NCBI GenBank assembly: GCA_017542055.1
Contig: JAFXXW010000003.1
Span: 1-45,449, forward strand
DNA length: 45,449 nucleotides
Direction of reading: 5' to 3'
Origin: Kiritimatiellia bacterium
GTDB taxonomy: Bacteria > Verrucomicrobiota > Kiritimatiellia > RFP12 > UBA1067
The position numbers were made by a program, and so were the translations under genes. The notes beneath the pieces are model-generated. The model did not search any database and was not told the DNA's origin. It worked only from the letters and a program-made list of their open reading frames with translations. Positions 5,399-20,033 of the stretch are shown here, piece by piece; position 1 is the first letter of the stretch, and each line of letters begins with the position of its first letter.

Positions 5399-8035
5399 AT
5401 GAGCGAAGAAACATTGGCCGGTCAGCCGATGGATGACGGCATGAAAGAGTTCGAGGCGTTGCTCGCGCAAGTGCGGGCGGCGCAGCGCAAGTTCGCCACG
5501 TACACGCAGGAGCAGGTGGATGCCATTTTCAAGGCGGCGGCCATTGCGGCCGACCGGGCGCGCATTCCGCTGGCCAAGCTGGCGGTGGAGGAAACCGGCA
5601 TGGGCGTGGTGGAGGACAAGATCATCAAGAACCACTACGCGGCCGAGTACATCTACAACGCGTTCAAAAACACGCAGACTTGCGGGGTGATCGAGTCGGA
5701 CGCGAGCGCGGGTTATCAGCGCGTGGCGGAGCCGATCGGGCTCATCGGGGCGGTAATTCCCACCACCAACCCCACGTCGACGGCCATTTTCAAGACGCTC
5801 CTCGCGCTCAAGACCCGCAACGGCATCGTCATCAGTCCCCATCCGCGCGCCAAGTCGTCCACGATCGCGGCGGCCAAGGTGGTGCTGGAGGCGGCGGTCG
5901 CGGCCGGCGCGCCGGAGGGCATCATCGGGTGGATCGACCAGCCGAGCTTGCCCAAGACCAACCTCCTCATGAAGGAGTCCGACATCATTCTCGCGACGGG
6001 CGGTCCCGGCATGGTGAAGGCGGCGTATTCGAGCGGCAAGCCCGCTTTGGGCGTGGGCGCCGGCAACACTCCGGCCATCATCGACGATTCGGCCGATCTG
6101 CCCTTGGCGGTGGCGAGCATCATCCATTCCAAGACGTTCGACAACGGCATGATTTGCGCGTCGGAGCAGTCCACCATCGTGCTGGACGGCGTGTACGATC
6201 GCGTCAAGCATCTCTTTGCCGAGTCTGGTTGCCACTTCCTGAGCGAGGACGAGCTCGAAAAGACGCGCAAGACGATTCTCGTGAACGGCGCTTTGAACGC
6301 CCGCATCGTGGGCCAGAAGCCGGTCACCATCGCCAAGCTCGCGGGCTTCGACGTGCCGGAAGACACCAAGATTCTGATCGGCGAGGTGGAGAGCGTGGAG
6401 CTGGCCGAGGAATTCGCGCACGAAAAGCTCTCCCCGGTTCTCGCGATGTATCGCGCCAAGGATTTCGAGGACGCGCTCCGCAAGGCCGAACGGCTGGTGG
6501 CGGACGGGGGCTTCGGCCATACGTCCAGCCTCTACGCGGACGAACTCAACGAGGGCGAGAAGATCGCCGAGTTCCGCGCCCGGATGAAGACCTGCCGCAT
6601 TCTCGTCAACACGCCTTCCAGCCAGGGCGGCATCGGCGACCTCTACAATTTCCGGCTGGCGCCTTCGCTGACGCTCGGGTGCGGCACCTGGGGCGGCAAT
6701 TCCGTGTCCGAAAACGTGGGGGTTAAGCACCTGATCAATATCAAGACTGTGGCCATAAGGAGAGAGAACATGTTGTGGTTCCGCGCGCCGGAGAAGGTCT
6801 ACCAGAAGAAGGGGTGCTTGCCGGTGGCGCTCCGCGAGTTGAGCGAAGAGCTGGGCAAGAAGAAGGCGTTCATCGTCACCGACAGCTTCCTGTACGCCAA
6901 CGGCTACACCCGGCCCATCGAGAAGAGCCTCGAGGAGCAGGGCATCATGTTCACCACCTTCTCCAACGTGGCGCCCGATCCCACGCTCGCCTGCGCCAAG
7001 GAAGGCGCCAAGCTGATGGCCGGCTTCAAGCCCGACGTCATCATCGCGATCGGCGGCGGCTCGGCGATGGACGCGGCGAAGATCATGTGGGTGCTTTACG
7101 AACATCCCGACTGCGACTTCCAGGACATGGCCATGCGTTTCATGGACATCCGCAAGCGCGTCTACAAGTTCCCCCACATGGGCGACAAGGCCTACTTCGT
7201 CTGCATTCCGACGAGCGCGGGTACGGGGTCCGAAGTGACGCCGTTCGCCGTCATCACCGACGAGCAGACGGGAGTCAAGTATCCGCTGGCGGACTACGAG
7301 CTCATGCCCGACATGGCCATCGTGGACGCCGACGTGCAGATGATGGCGCCGCCCGGACTGACTTCGGCTTCGGGCATTGATGCCGTTTCGCATGCTTTGG
7401 AGGCGTACGCTTCGATGATGGCCACGGATTACACCGACGGTCTCGCGATCCGCGCCCTGCAGACGATTTTCGAGTATCTGCCGCAGTGCTACGAGGCGGC
7501 GGTGGCCAAGAAGGCGGCCCCCAAGGCGCGCGAGAAGATGGCCAACGCGGCCACGATGGCCGGCATGGCCTTCGCCAACGCGTTCCTGGGCGTGATGCAC
7601 TCGATGGCGCACAAGCTGGGCGCTTTCCATCACATTCCGCACGGCATCGCCAACGCGCTCATGATGGAGCAGGTGCTCCGGTTCAACGCGGTCAAGGTTC
7701 CGCGCAAGATGGGCACTTTCCCGCAGTACGACCATCCGCACACGCTCGAGCGCTATTGCGAGATCGCGGCGGCGCTGGGCATCGACGGCAAGGACCAGAA
7801 CGACCAGTTCGAGAATCTCATTCTGGCCATCCGCGAACTGCAGGCCAAGATCGGCATCAAGCCCACCATCCGCGACTACGTTCCGGACGAGGCGGACTTC
7901 CTGGCGCGGCTCGACGCGATGGTGGAACAGGCCTTCGACGACCAGTGCACCGGCGCCAATCCGCGCTATCCGCTGATGAGGGAAATCAAGGAAATGTATC
8001 TCAACGCCTACTACGGCAAGCGCGTGGGCGTCTAA
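5399..8035 (+). CDS. adhE: Bifunctional acetaldehyde-CoA/alcohol dehydrogenase
   Basis: An 878-residue fermentative enzyme converting acetyl-CoA to acetaldehyde and then ethanol with two NADH. The N-terminal half is a CoA-acylating aldehyde dehydrogenase: GVGAGNTPA, and the catalytic Cys in NGMICASEQS. The C-terminal half, after residue about 455, is an iron-dependent alcohol dehydrogenase with the GGGSAMDAAK nucleotide loop and metal-site histidines in GVMHSMAHKLGAFHH. Length matches the family (about 870-890). It has its own promoter. Together with the downstream hydrogenase it gives two routes for disposing of reductant. Confidence 0.97.
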   Translation: MSEETLAGQPMDDGMKEFEALLAQVRAAQRKFATYTQEQVDAIFKAAAIAADRARIPLAKLAVEETGMGVVEDKIIKNHYAAEYIYNAFKNTQTCGVIESDASAGYQRVAEPIGLIGAVIPTTNPTSTAIFKTLLALKTRNGIVISPHPRAKSSTIAAAKVVLEAAVAAGAPEGIIGWIDQPSLPKTNLLMKESDIILATGGPGMVKAAYSSGKPALGVGAGNTPAIIDDSADLPLAVASIIHSKTFDNGMICASEQSTIVLDGVYDRVKHLFAESGCHFLSEDELEKTRKTILVNGALNARIVGQKPVTIAKLAGFDVPEDTKILIGEVESVELAEEFAHEKLSPVLAMYRAKDFEDALRKAERLVADGGFGHTSSLYADELNEGEKIAEFRARMKTCRILVNTPSSQGGIGDLYNFRLAPSLTLGCGTWGGNSVSENVGVKHLINIKTVAIRRENMLWFRAPEKVYQKKGCLPVALRELSEELGKKKAFIVTDSFLYANGYTRPIEKSLEEQGIMFTTFSNVAPDPTLACAKEGAKLMAGFKPDVIIAIGGGSAMDAAKIMWVLYEHPDCDFQDMAMRFMDIRKRVYKFPHMGDKAYFVCIPTSAGTGSEVTPFAVITDEQTGVKYPLADYELMPDMAIVDADVQMMAPPGLTSASGIDAVSHALEAYASMMATDYTDGLAIRALQTIFEYLPQCYEAAVAKKAAPKAREKMANAATMAGMAFANAFLGVMHSMAHKLGAFHHIPHGIANALMMEQVLRFNAVKVPRKMGTFPQYDHPHTLERYCEIAAALGIDGKDQNDQFENLILAIRELQAKIGIKPTIRDYVPDEADFLARLDAMVEQAFDDQCTGANPRYPLMREIKEMYLNAYYGKRVGV

Positions 8036-17586: not shown

Positions 17587-17662
17587 GGGGAAGTAGCTCA
17601 GTTGGTAGAGCATCACGTTCGCAACGTGGGGGTCGGGAGTTCGAATCTCCTCTTCTCCACCA
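17587..17662 (+). tRNA. tRNA-Ala (anticodon CGC)
   Basis: A 76-nt cloverleaf. Acceptor GGGGAAG pairs with CTTCTCC, including the G3-U70 wobble that identifies alanine tRNAs. The D-arm is GCTC...GAGC. The anticodon stem is TCACG/CGTGG with loop TTCGCAA, giving anticodon CGC (codon GCG). The T-arm contains GTTCGAAT. The discriminator is A and CCA is encoded (17660-17662). The prophage begins immediately downstream. Confidence 0.96.
17630..17662. other. Probable attL: tRNA-Ala 3' end
   Basis: A tyrosine-integrase gene begins 157 bases downstream of an intact tRNA. This is the classic arrangement for phages integrating into the T-arm/acceptor half of tRNA genes. The core length cannot be fixed because attR lies beyond the window. 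Confidence 0.6.
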
Positions 17663-17743
17663 TTTCGGTGAAAACAGGGATTGTGTGCAAATACAAGGGT
17701 TTCCGCGTGTTCTTGTCCTCGCGGTCGCCCGCTCGGTGAGGGG

Positions 17744-17774
17744 GTTGTAAGATGCAATTACAACATTTTACAAC
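17744..17774. repeat. Three TTACAAC boxes upstream of the integrase
   Basis: GTTGTAA at 17744-17750 is the inverse of TTACAAC at 17758-17764, and a direct copy follows at 17768-17774, ten bases after the second. They lie between attL and the integrase start. Such boxes could be integrase arm-type or excisionase sites, or an operator for int. No clear -10/-35 pair for int was found nearby. Confidence 0.4.
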
Positions 17775-17818
17775 AGTCGCGCCGGGTTGCCAGAAATGGC
17801 GGAAAGTGTGCGCACAAA

Positions 17819-19030
17819 ATGAAACTCAAACAAACGGGGTCGGTCTTCCTCAATCACGGCCTTTGGTATTACTCCGTACAACTGCCAGGCGAAAAACGCC
17901 GGAAGCAAGTACCCCTCCGCGCCCCCGGCGCGAAACATACGCTGCGGGCGGATCGTCCGCGCAAGATGGCGGAAGAGGCCGCCGCGCGGTATTGGCAGGA
18001 ACACACGCGGCAAGCCGCACGGCATGAGCCGACAGGCGCAACCGTCGCCGATCTCTGCGCGGCGTGGGACGCCCATTGCCGCGAATACTACAAAAGCGAA
18101 GCGTCGGCGGAAAACGCCGCCCTCGACGTTCGTGCGTTCCGCGAATTGTTCGGCGGCGCGGCGGTCGCTGAATTGACGCACACGGATATGCTGAAATTCC
18201 GCGACGCCCTCATTCGCTCCGGGATAAGCCGCCGCACGGTCAACGGGCGGCTCTGGCGCGTGAAGTTCATGCTCGGCTGGGCGTTGGACGAGGCTCTTAT
18301 CCCTGCCGCAGTAAAAGCGGAATTGACGCAAGTCAAGTGCGTGAAGCGCGGAAGGTCTGCCGCGCCGGAACGTCCGCCCGTCCGCCCGGTGGACGACGCG
18401 ACGATTGCCGCAACCGTGGCGAAGATGATGCCCAACACGGCGGACATGGTGCGCGTCCATAGATACACGGGGATGCGCCCTTGCGAATTGTGCGGCTTGC
18501 GCTGGTCGTTGATCGACACAAGCCGGACGCCTTGGGTGTACCACGTCCCGCCGGAAGTCAACAAAAACGAATGGCGCGGCGAATTGGGGCAACCTCGCGT
18601 GGTGTGCATTGGGCCGAAAGCGAGGGCAATCCTCGAACGTCACCGGGGCGACGACGTGCCGTTCTCGCCTGTCCGGGCAATGTCTGAATACATGGAAGCG
18701 CGGCGCGCCGCCCGCGTGACGCCGTTCTACGGCAAAAAGAAAAACGCACCCGCTCCGCACGTCCCCCGCGTTCTGGGGGAATGTTGGAACACAAACGCGT
18801 ACACTAAAACGATCCGGGCCGCCTGTGTCCGCGCCGGGATCGTGCCGTGGGGCTCCAACCGCCTGCGCCATACCTTCGGCACGGAAGTCCGCCGGGCGTT
18901 CGGTTTGGAAGCGGCGCGGGCCGTCCTCGGCCATACCAACGGCGGATGTGTTACCGACAGGTATACCTACGATGCGATGGAAGATGAGATGGTGCGCAGG
19001 GCATCATCAGCGGTGGAGGCATTGGGGTGA
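17819..19030 (+). CDS. int: Phage tyrosine integrase
   Basis: 403 residues from ATG 17819; the frame is open back to 17681, but that extension runs through attL-proximal sequence and looks non-coding. An N-terminal arm-binding region is followed by a core-binding SAM-like domain (about 65-150) and the catalytic domain. Catalytic residues: first Arg in TGMRPCELCGLRW, then LRHTFG (His-x-x-Arg region with RLRH), LGH, and the nucleophile Tyr in DRYTY near the C-terminus. It catalyses integration at the tRNA-Ala. It is the only plus-strand phage gene in the window. GGAAAG precedes the start at a rather long distance. Confidence 0.93.
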   Translation: MKLKQTGSVFLNHGLWYYSVQLPGEKRRKQVPLRAPGAKHTLRADRPRKMAEEAAARYWQEHTRQAARHEPTGATVADLCAAWDAHCREYYKSEASAENAALDVRAFRELFGGAAVAELTHTDMLKFRDALIRSGISRRTVNGRLWRVKFMLGWALDEALIPAAVKAELTQVKCVKRGRSAAPERPPVRPVDDATIAATVAKMMPNTADMVRVHRYTGMRPCELCGLRWSLIDTSRTPWVYHVPPEVNKNEWRGELGQPRVVCIGPKARAILERHRGDDVPFSPVRAMSEYMEARRAARVTPFYGKKKNAPAPHVPRVLGECWNTNAYTKTIRAACVRAGIVPWGSNRLRHTFGTEVRRAFGLEAARAVLGHTNGGCVTDRYTYDAMEDEMVRRASSAVEALG

Positions 19031-19070
19031 TACGGCGTACGGCTCGATGGCGGGGCGAAATCGATCTTAT

Positions 19071-19102
19071 AAAAAGCCCCGGAAGGCTTGAGCCAACCGG
19101 GG
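19071..19102 (-). terminator. Intrinsic terminator for leftward transcription
   Basis: On the minus strand CCCCGG (19102-19097) pairs with CCGGGG (19082-19077), with an inner GGCT/AGCC stem, followed by C and a run of five T (19075-19071). It would end both the small RNA starting near 19149 and any read-through from the long leftward phage operon. It sits 40 bases past the integrase stop, between convergent units. Confidence 0.8.
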
Positions 19103-19119
19103 AGCATCTTATCACAGAT

Positions 19120-19148
19120 GTTTCAATTCACGCCCTTTGCGGAGCGAC
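19120..19148 (-). repeat. Single type I-C-like CRISPR repeat
   Basis: The minus-strand sequence begins GTCGCTCCG, continues CAAAGGGCG and ends TGAATTGAAAC. The GTCGC start and the TGRATTGAAAC end match the known form of type I-C repeats. A CGCTC/GGGCG stem (one G-U pair) with a six-base loop leaves exactly 11 bases 3' of the stem, the length of the I-C crRNA 5' tag. It is 29 bases, about three shorter than usual, all lost from the stem-loop. I found no second copy in the window, so this is not an array. Confidence 0.6.
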
Positions 19149-19155
19149 AGTGAGT

Positions 19156-19185
19156 ATTATATCATAAATCGCCCTCGTCTGTCAA
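19156..19185 (-). promoter_or_regulatory. Promoter for the solitary-repeat RNA
   Basis: Minus strand TTGACA (19185-19180), 18-nt spacer, TATAAT (19161-19156) within TATGATATAATA. The elements match consensus and the extended -10 sequence matches the host promoters. The -35 box and spacer overlap the last codons and TGA of the 105-residue gene, so the promoter is embedded in that gene's 3' end. Confidence 0.85.
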
Positions 19186-19479
19186 GGGGGTTTTTTCGGC
19201 CACTTGCGGCCGGGCTAATACCCGGCCATCCTCGCCGCAGAATTTAGGCCAGACGGCCGAGAGGGTGGCGATGGCGGCGCGCTTGCGATCGATCGCGGCC
19301 TCGCGGAATTTGTCAGCCGCCTGGCGCAGCAGCTCGAGCGCCTGCGACGCCTTGGCCCAGTCGGCCACATCCACCTCGTAATTTAGGCAGTTTAGGGCAT
19401 CCAGAGCCTCGCGCGCTCCAGGAATGGAGCGCGAGGCTATCTTGTTGAGGATTTGCCGGTTTTGTGCCATTAATGTCAC
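19162..19479 (-). CDS. Unknown phage accessory protein (105 residues)
   Basis: Start GTG at 19479 overlaps the upstream stop as GTGA; an in-frame ATG at 19470 is an alternative. The sequence is soluble, helical-looking (KASQALELLRQAADKFREAA) with two Cys, and I recognise no family. It is the last gene of the leftward cluster. Its 3' end contains the promoter for the solitary-repeat RNA. Together with the 185-residue gene upstream it forms a two-gene unit with its own promoter, as is usual for lysogeny-expressed accessory genes. Confidence 0.7.
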   Translation of the reverse strand: MTLMAQNRQILNKIASRSIPGAREALDALNCLNYEVDVADWAKASQALELLRQAADKFREAAIDRKRAAIATLSAVWPKFCGEDGRVLARPQVAEKTPLTDEGDL

Positions 19480-20033
19480 CCCTCAATCGCCTCTTTGCGG
19501 CGGTCGGCCAACCAATCAGCCAAATCGGCATCAACGCGCCGCACCGCCTCCAAATCTATCCTGCCACACCGATCCTCTATAATATCCCACTGATCGCGGT
19601 TGCGGTCGCGGTTATCCTCGTCGCCCACTACCCAATAGGATGCGTTGTCTCGCGCGATGAGATCGCAATGCCCGAGCGTGATGTGGCGCCCAACGTACAC
19701 GCATACCCCCTCATCGCCCTCGCCGCCATCGGCAATATCTGCGATAATCTGGTAGTCGCCACCATCGGTCGCGACCTGCTCGCCAATCCCACAGGCGAGG
19801 GCGAGGTCGCGACGACTCCGCCGCAAATCATCGCCAGTCCAAATATCAGGGCAGTCTCCCGTGAGGAGATACTCATCGCATCCGAGGGATATCACTTGGC
19901 AATAATCATCCTCGCCGATGATCCTCCACGCCGCCTGCTCGTTGGCGGTGTAGCATTTATCCACGTCACGCCCAGCGATGGCGAGATCGTACTTGATGCT
20001 CTCCAACTCTTCGGCTGTCGGTATCTTGTTCAT
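19476..20033 (-). CDS. Unknown, strongly acidic phage accessory protein (185 residues)
   Basis: By count it has 43 Asp/Glu against 21 Lys/Arg (net about -22) and eight Cys, with repeated GD/GDE turns (GEDDYCQV, TGDCPDIWTGDD, GDEDNRDRNRDQ). No signal peptide or membrane segment. No family recognised. Such charge is seen in DNA-mimic proteins and some phage anti-defence proteins, but this is only a hint. It is expressed from a strong host-like promoter 76 bases upstream, with AAAGGAA before the ATG. Confidence 0.75.
   Translation of the reverse strand: MNKIPTAEELESIKYDLAIAGRDVDKCYTANEQAAWRIIGEDDYCQVISLGCDEYLLTGDCPDIWTGDDLRRSRRDLALACGIGEQVATDGGDYQIIADIADGGEGDEGVCVYVGRHITLGHCDLIARDNASYWVVGDEDNRDRNRDQWDIIEDRCGRIDLEAVRRVDADLADWLADRRKEAIEG

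Follow-up and report, generated by a model that had tools for sequence, protein, structure and literature searches.

The window, by which we mean the whole 45,449-nt stretch of Kiritimatiellia DNA analyzed here, contains a prophage, and the contig end falls inside it. A small RNA gene that carries a solitary type I-C-like CRISPR repeat is placed between the 3′ end of the integrase gene and a 105-aa ORF, at the end of a minus-strand cluster of phage genes (tape measure, capsid-protease, portal, large terminase, primase-like, RusA, and methyltransferase). The features of the locus are the following.

17587 to 17662, plus strand: tRNA-Ala(CGC), the likely attachment site judging by its position
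17681 to 19030, plus strand: tyrosine integrase, convergent with the RNA gene
About 19102 to 19071, minus strand: intrinsic terminator, a GC hairpin and T run (from sequence and predicted fold)
19105 to 19120, minus strand: predicted 5-bp hairpin starting from the last handle base, where a guide would begin
19120 to 19130, minus strand: 11-nt 5′ handle (tag) UGAAUUGAAAC, identical to the matching part of the congeneric repeat
Between 19131 and 19130, minus strand: predicted Cas5 cut, by analogy with Cas5d (PMC5965380)
19131 to 19146, minus strand: predicted canonical-register stem of 5 bp, including one G-U pair, with a 6-nt loop
19120 to 19148, minus strand: solitary type I-C-like repeat GTCGCTCCGCAAAGGGCGTGAATTGAAAC, 29 nt, whose 3′ 16 nt equal those of congeneric I-C array repeats
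19156 to 19161, minus strand: -10 element TATAAT, directly preceded by TGA (extended -10-like)
19180 to 19185, minus strand: -35 element TTGACA, a perfect match
19162 to 19479, minus strand: 105-aa accessory ORF directly upstream of the RNA gene, with the -35 element inside its 3′ end
19476 to 20033, minus strand: 185-aa, very acidic protein (pI 4.25, charge -22)

A search for an attachment repeat for the prophage found none, and family searches assigned no family to the 105-aa ORF. The 185-aa protein has no homologue in 61 congeners. Its predicted structure is of low confidence (pLDDT 61) and gave no fold match, so we make no claim that it is an anti-CRISPR protein; it is a possible anti-defence gene. 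The host assembly comprises 1.35 Mb and is 88.7% complete, and within it Csd1/Cas8c, Cas5d, and Cas1 had no match.

An earlier note, made from the letters of this DNA, had described a strong minus-strand promoter, a predicted start one base before a 29-nt repeat with an 11-nt I-C tag, a short tail with an intrinsic terminator, about 80 nt of RNA in all, and a window with neither a second repeat nor a cas gene. This description is borne out. The promoter (19185-19156) combines perfect TTGACA and TATAAT elements across an 18-nt spacer that ends in TGA, and two such perfect pairs occur in the window as against none in 100 shuffles. The other perfect pair lies at 447-476 on the plus strand, outside the prophage. 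Because the promoter core TATGATATAATACTCACTGT also precedes a tRNA-Asn gene in the same genome, we take the promoter to be of the host's strong stable-RNA type. Only 7 nt separate TATAAT (19156) from the repeat unit (19148), so the predicted start (19148-19151) coincides with the first repeat base or falls immediately before it. The terminator region has a predicted RNA fold z of -2.8, and transcription from the start to this point would yield an RNA of about 79 nt. The window contains no cas gene and no second copy of the 3′ 16-mer even when three mismatches are allowed, and Rfam returned no family above threshold at the repeat unit.

Comparison of the unit with the arrays of related genomes, a check set in advance, revealed where its sequence belongs. 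Csd1/Cas8c is present in 4 congeners and in 10 further members of the family or order among the 116 relatives searched. The congeneric I-C arrays are built on a 33-nt repeat, GTCGCCCGTCGCACGACGGGCGTGAATTGAAAC, and close variants of it, and the prophage unit is identical to this repeat in its first 5 nt (GTCGC) and its last 16 nt. All mismatches fall within the upper stem and loop, as does a 4-nt deletion; with a congeneric repeat of 33 nt, the 29-nt unit is shorter by 4 nt and not by the roughly three bases first estimated. The unit carries the genus's own version of the tag, GTGAATT, which is found in only 4 of 48 other short viral units, the commoner version being GTGGATT. Across 61 congeners the 16-mer GGGCGTGAATTGAAAC occurs in arrays (one copy at a contig edge) and at the prophage site only, and its reversed control gave no matches. 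Chance resemblance is therefore not reasonable. The first refutation named in the earlier note, the lack of a related I-C array with a similar repeat, thus did not occur. That note had also named recurrence as an ordinary non-CRISPR element as a possible refutation, and in these congeners the 16-mer was not found in that role. Since the congeneric arrays share the 16-nt end and the 16-mer never appears there as an ordinary element, an RNA against type I-C systems is the best reading; the earlier proposal that it acts against an I-C system of the host or its relatives is partly supported, and no I-C system was detected in the carrier. When 90 spacers, taken from congeners and from a single order-level relative, were compared with the prophage, matches reached at most 15 nt, which is chance level, and none was convincing. 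Among 388 genomes of the phylum, the short-stem unit was found only at the prophage site (matches in one genome, G056, are parts of its 33-nt array repeat and were not counted).

The shortened stem bears directly on processing. In type I-C systems the Cas5d cut leaves an 11-nt 5′ handle and a 21-nt 3′ hairpin, with Cas5d proposed to bind the handle too, and the mature crRNA consists of 11+33+21 nt (PMC5965380). Five base pairs are open to the prophage unit in the canonical register and its tag is identical, but fold prediction favors another register: the minimum-energy fold is shifted by 2 nt (79% versus 20% for the canonical one) and would hide the cut site. This preference is absent from the predicted folds of the congeneric repeat and of a related phage unit (L163, below). 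The suggestion that the unit could be processing-defective is not upheld by stem length, because, according to a passage of PMC7064716 citing Nam et al. 2012, Cas5d needs no more than a 3-bp stem and a tetraloop to recognize and cleave its substrate; going by that passage, the shortened stem is compatible with processing, and a defect would be possible only through the competing fold.

RNA anti-CRISPRs (Racrs) are phage-encoded solitary repeats that inhibit CRISPR-Cas, and one of them, RacrIC1, acts on type I-C (PMC10651486). Their marks are a solitary unit in a mobile element, a close upstream promoter, and a repeat that fits the CRISPR subtype of the host or its close relatives. Here, the unit has phage genes around it and no second repeat within 100-300 bp, the perfect promoter at 19156-19185 lies immediately upstream, and the subtype agrees through the congeners, with no I-C system detected in the carrier assembly itself. 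RacrIC1 of a Bifidobacterium pseudocatenulatum prophage is likewise a phage-encoded solitary I-C repeat, but it is co-transcribed with acrIC5, lying downstream of it on a two-gene RNA (PMC10651486), whereas the window unit has its own promoter, would start its RNA with the repeat, and has a shortened stem. RacrIF1 from a Thiocystis violascens prophage is also an intergenic solitary repeat with a strong promoter of its own, made as a small RNA such as is predicted for the window unit. RacrIF1 differs in belonging to subtype I-F, with Cas6f, and in that about 70-76 nt upstream of the cut account for inhibition (PMC10651486). A RacrIF1 variant with only the 5′ handle product gave no inhibition. 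In the window unit no more than about 20 nt precede the cut, and the larger predicted product carries the 5′ handle, an arrangement that reverses that of RacrIF1, the best-studied Racr. Viral CRISPR mini-arrays are also phage-borne and of host repeat type, but their repeats enclose one or two spacers, most of which match related viruses (PMC11656645). The two repeats around a spacer that define a mini-array are not present in the window, which has one repeat and no spacer match.

Related units occur in other phages, although the exact 29-mer is absent from the viral contigs searched and the locus has no similarity in phage and plasmid records. A rumen phage contig only distantly related to the window prophage (IMGVR_UViG_2061766007_000029, loci L163/L236) carries a 27-nt unit, GTCGCCCGTAAGGGCGTGAATTGAAAC, that has its own promoter, with a TATAAT some 32 nt before the unit, and is followed by a terminator. 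Upstream of this unit, in the same orientation and with a few small frames between, lies a gene whose product shares 51% identity over 101 aa with the 185-aa neighbor in the window. The cassette sits between the terminase and portal genes, so the linkage of unit and accessory gene is kept in differently organized phages. The stem and the sequence 3′ of the unit differ from those of the window. The sole viral homologue found for the 185-aa protein thus sits near another solitary repeat unit. At a second locus, L187, a unit of 30 nt ends in the same 16 nt, follows a TTGACA, and precedes a terminator-like hairpin. The integrase relatives L233-L235 lack the unit and have other small genes in that place; the slot adjoining the integrase is variable. 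L233 (IMGVR_UViG_3300028048_000210), whose integrase is 76% identical, has a TTTGATATAATAC promoter-like site immediately 3′ of the integrase gene, and a GCGCGG...CCGCGCC hairpin and a terminator follow it. This element occupies the position of the window's unit, is not CRISPR-like, and seems to be a different small RNA gene using that accessory slot.

Short-stem solitary units turn out to be numerous in viruses. The pattern GTCGC-N4..11-GCGTGNATTGAAAC matched 66 viral contigs as against 2 for its reversed control. After removal of near-duplicates and of contigs with a second repeat nearby, 48 distinct solitary units of 23-30 nt were obtained. Pairing at the two inner stem positions is seen in 41/43 and 39/43 units (the window included), through CG, TA, AT, GC, and TG types; the stem pairs covary. 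Shuffles gave means of 30.0 and 27.7 and reached the observed values in 0 of 5000 cases, an excess that is not an exact probability because the shuffles ignore relatedness. Positions outside any ORF of at least 100 aa hold 27 of 49 units, compared with 18% of random positions. Another scan looked for I-C repeats a short way after a TATAAT. None of the 74 repeats associated with arrays was under 31 nt, whereas 7 of the 16 solitary repeats measured 26-30 nt (Fisher p = 1.5e-6), with the proviso that some of those called solitary close to a contig end may be the ends of arrays. Bacterial contigs from Paenibacillus (L148), Thermotogaceae (L104), Thermoguttaceae (L138), and Treponema (L076) contain solitary I-C-like units of 26-29 nt immediately after a TATAAT, with terminator-like hairpins downstream in the first two. 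Some viral contigs (L186 at 6434-6523 and L213/L214) carry at least two short I-C-like repeats with mutually different stems in a mini-array-like arrangement. A recognizable promoter directly precedes only a minority of short units, so the repeat-first layout is not established as general. The prophage unit and about 48 more from viruses suggest that the repeat hairpin is often shortened in phages, with its pairing and the handle kept.

We read the prophage unit as a candidate Racr against the type I-C systems of the host genus, a reading that we regard as probable. The short RNA (19149-19071) would be made constitutively, and in an I-C-bearing host Cas5c (Cas5d) would bind the shortened hairpin and cut after GGGCG. 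That cut is predicted to release a 19-nt hairpin from the upstream side and a 60-nt RNA, which begins with an authentic 5′ handle and continues through two hairpins to a U tail. Since the predicted start lies at the repeat, the 5′ handle would be found on the main product of processing. With almost nothing upstream of the cut, either the short hairpin would trap Cas5c or the product with the handle would nucleate a dead-end complex. We favor the dead-end complex with moderate confidence, since in type I-C a single protein, Cas5c, serves both hairpin and handle. The 60-nt product would capture Cas5c and probably also Cas8c and Cas7c, with its guide part blocked by hairpins and a terminator rather than a repeat at its end, and Cas proteins would be diverted from real crRNAs by this decoy. 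In the present lysogen, where no I-C genes were detected, the decoy would be idle; it would act in I-C-bearing relatives, that is, other strains or species of the genus.

CreA and CreR are crRNA-like RNAs that use host Cas proteins, are encoded in or near cas loci, and silence by partial pairing; the RNA of the window unit would be crRNA-like as well, with no cas gene in the window. A guide of this sort, in which the sequence 3′ of the handle directs host Cascade to a gene of the host or of a rival phage for silencing by partial pairing, or for cutting as viral mini-arrays do, would agree with the intact 5′ handle and with a predicted 60-nt product close in length to mature I-C crRNA (11+33+21 nt, PMC5965380). 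We nevertheless think it unlikely: the would-be guide begins with a hairpin and then runs into the terminator, it has no second match in the host genome and its other matches hit the promoter part only, and the related phage (L163/L236) has a different sequence after its unit.

That the unit is a functionless remnant of a decayed CRISPR array or mini-array would suit its solitary, shortened state in a lysogen without detected cas genes, but promoter, unit, and terminator are each intact and closely spaced, no partial second repeat was found in the window, a related phage has a similar layout with a different stem, and short-stem solitary units with covarying stems recur in many viruses, all of which makes decay distinctly improbable. 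We give very little credence to an ordinary phage regulatory RNA, acting for example on the integrase region, whose 3′ part would be CRISPR-like by chance or for other reasons. The phage with the 76%-identical integrase does have a different promoter-hairpin-terminator RNA gene in the same place; against this, the unit has 16 exact nt and a 5′ GTCGC in common with the genus's own repeat, and the 16-mer is absent from the non-array DNA of 61 congeners.

The reading as a Racr has evidence of its own to contend with. No I-C system was detected in the carrier, no spacer match is convincing, the shifted fold is favored, and the handle-only RacrIF1 variant is inactive while almost nothing lies upstream of the cut here. 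In the published survey about 90% of prophages and viruses carrying solitary repeat units (SRUs) infect hosts with CRISPR-Cas, and 83% of SRUs fit the host subtype (PMC10651486), so a carrier without detected I-C is a minority case or its assembly is incomplete.

Racrs were described in 2023 by a search demanding near-full repeat matches. The published SRUFinder cut-offs (90% identity, 90% coverage, and 41.1 bits) are search cut-offs and no functional definition, and the prophage unit falls below them, its best score against 72 array repeats being 32.2 bits at about 50% coverage. Such units were therefore probably missed by the published search, and with short units lying outside near-full repeat searches the Racr class is probably undercounted. 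Only tentatively do we suggest a widespread, largely overlooked "handle-first" class of short-stem Racrs against type I-C, in which the handle product would nucleate a dead-end Cas5c-Cas8c-Cas7c complex rather than a Cas7 filament on upstream RNA. The repeat-first layout predicts an outcome other than that of the sole Racr mechanism worked out so far, and it could show which part of an I-C repeat suffices to trap Cas5c.
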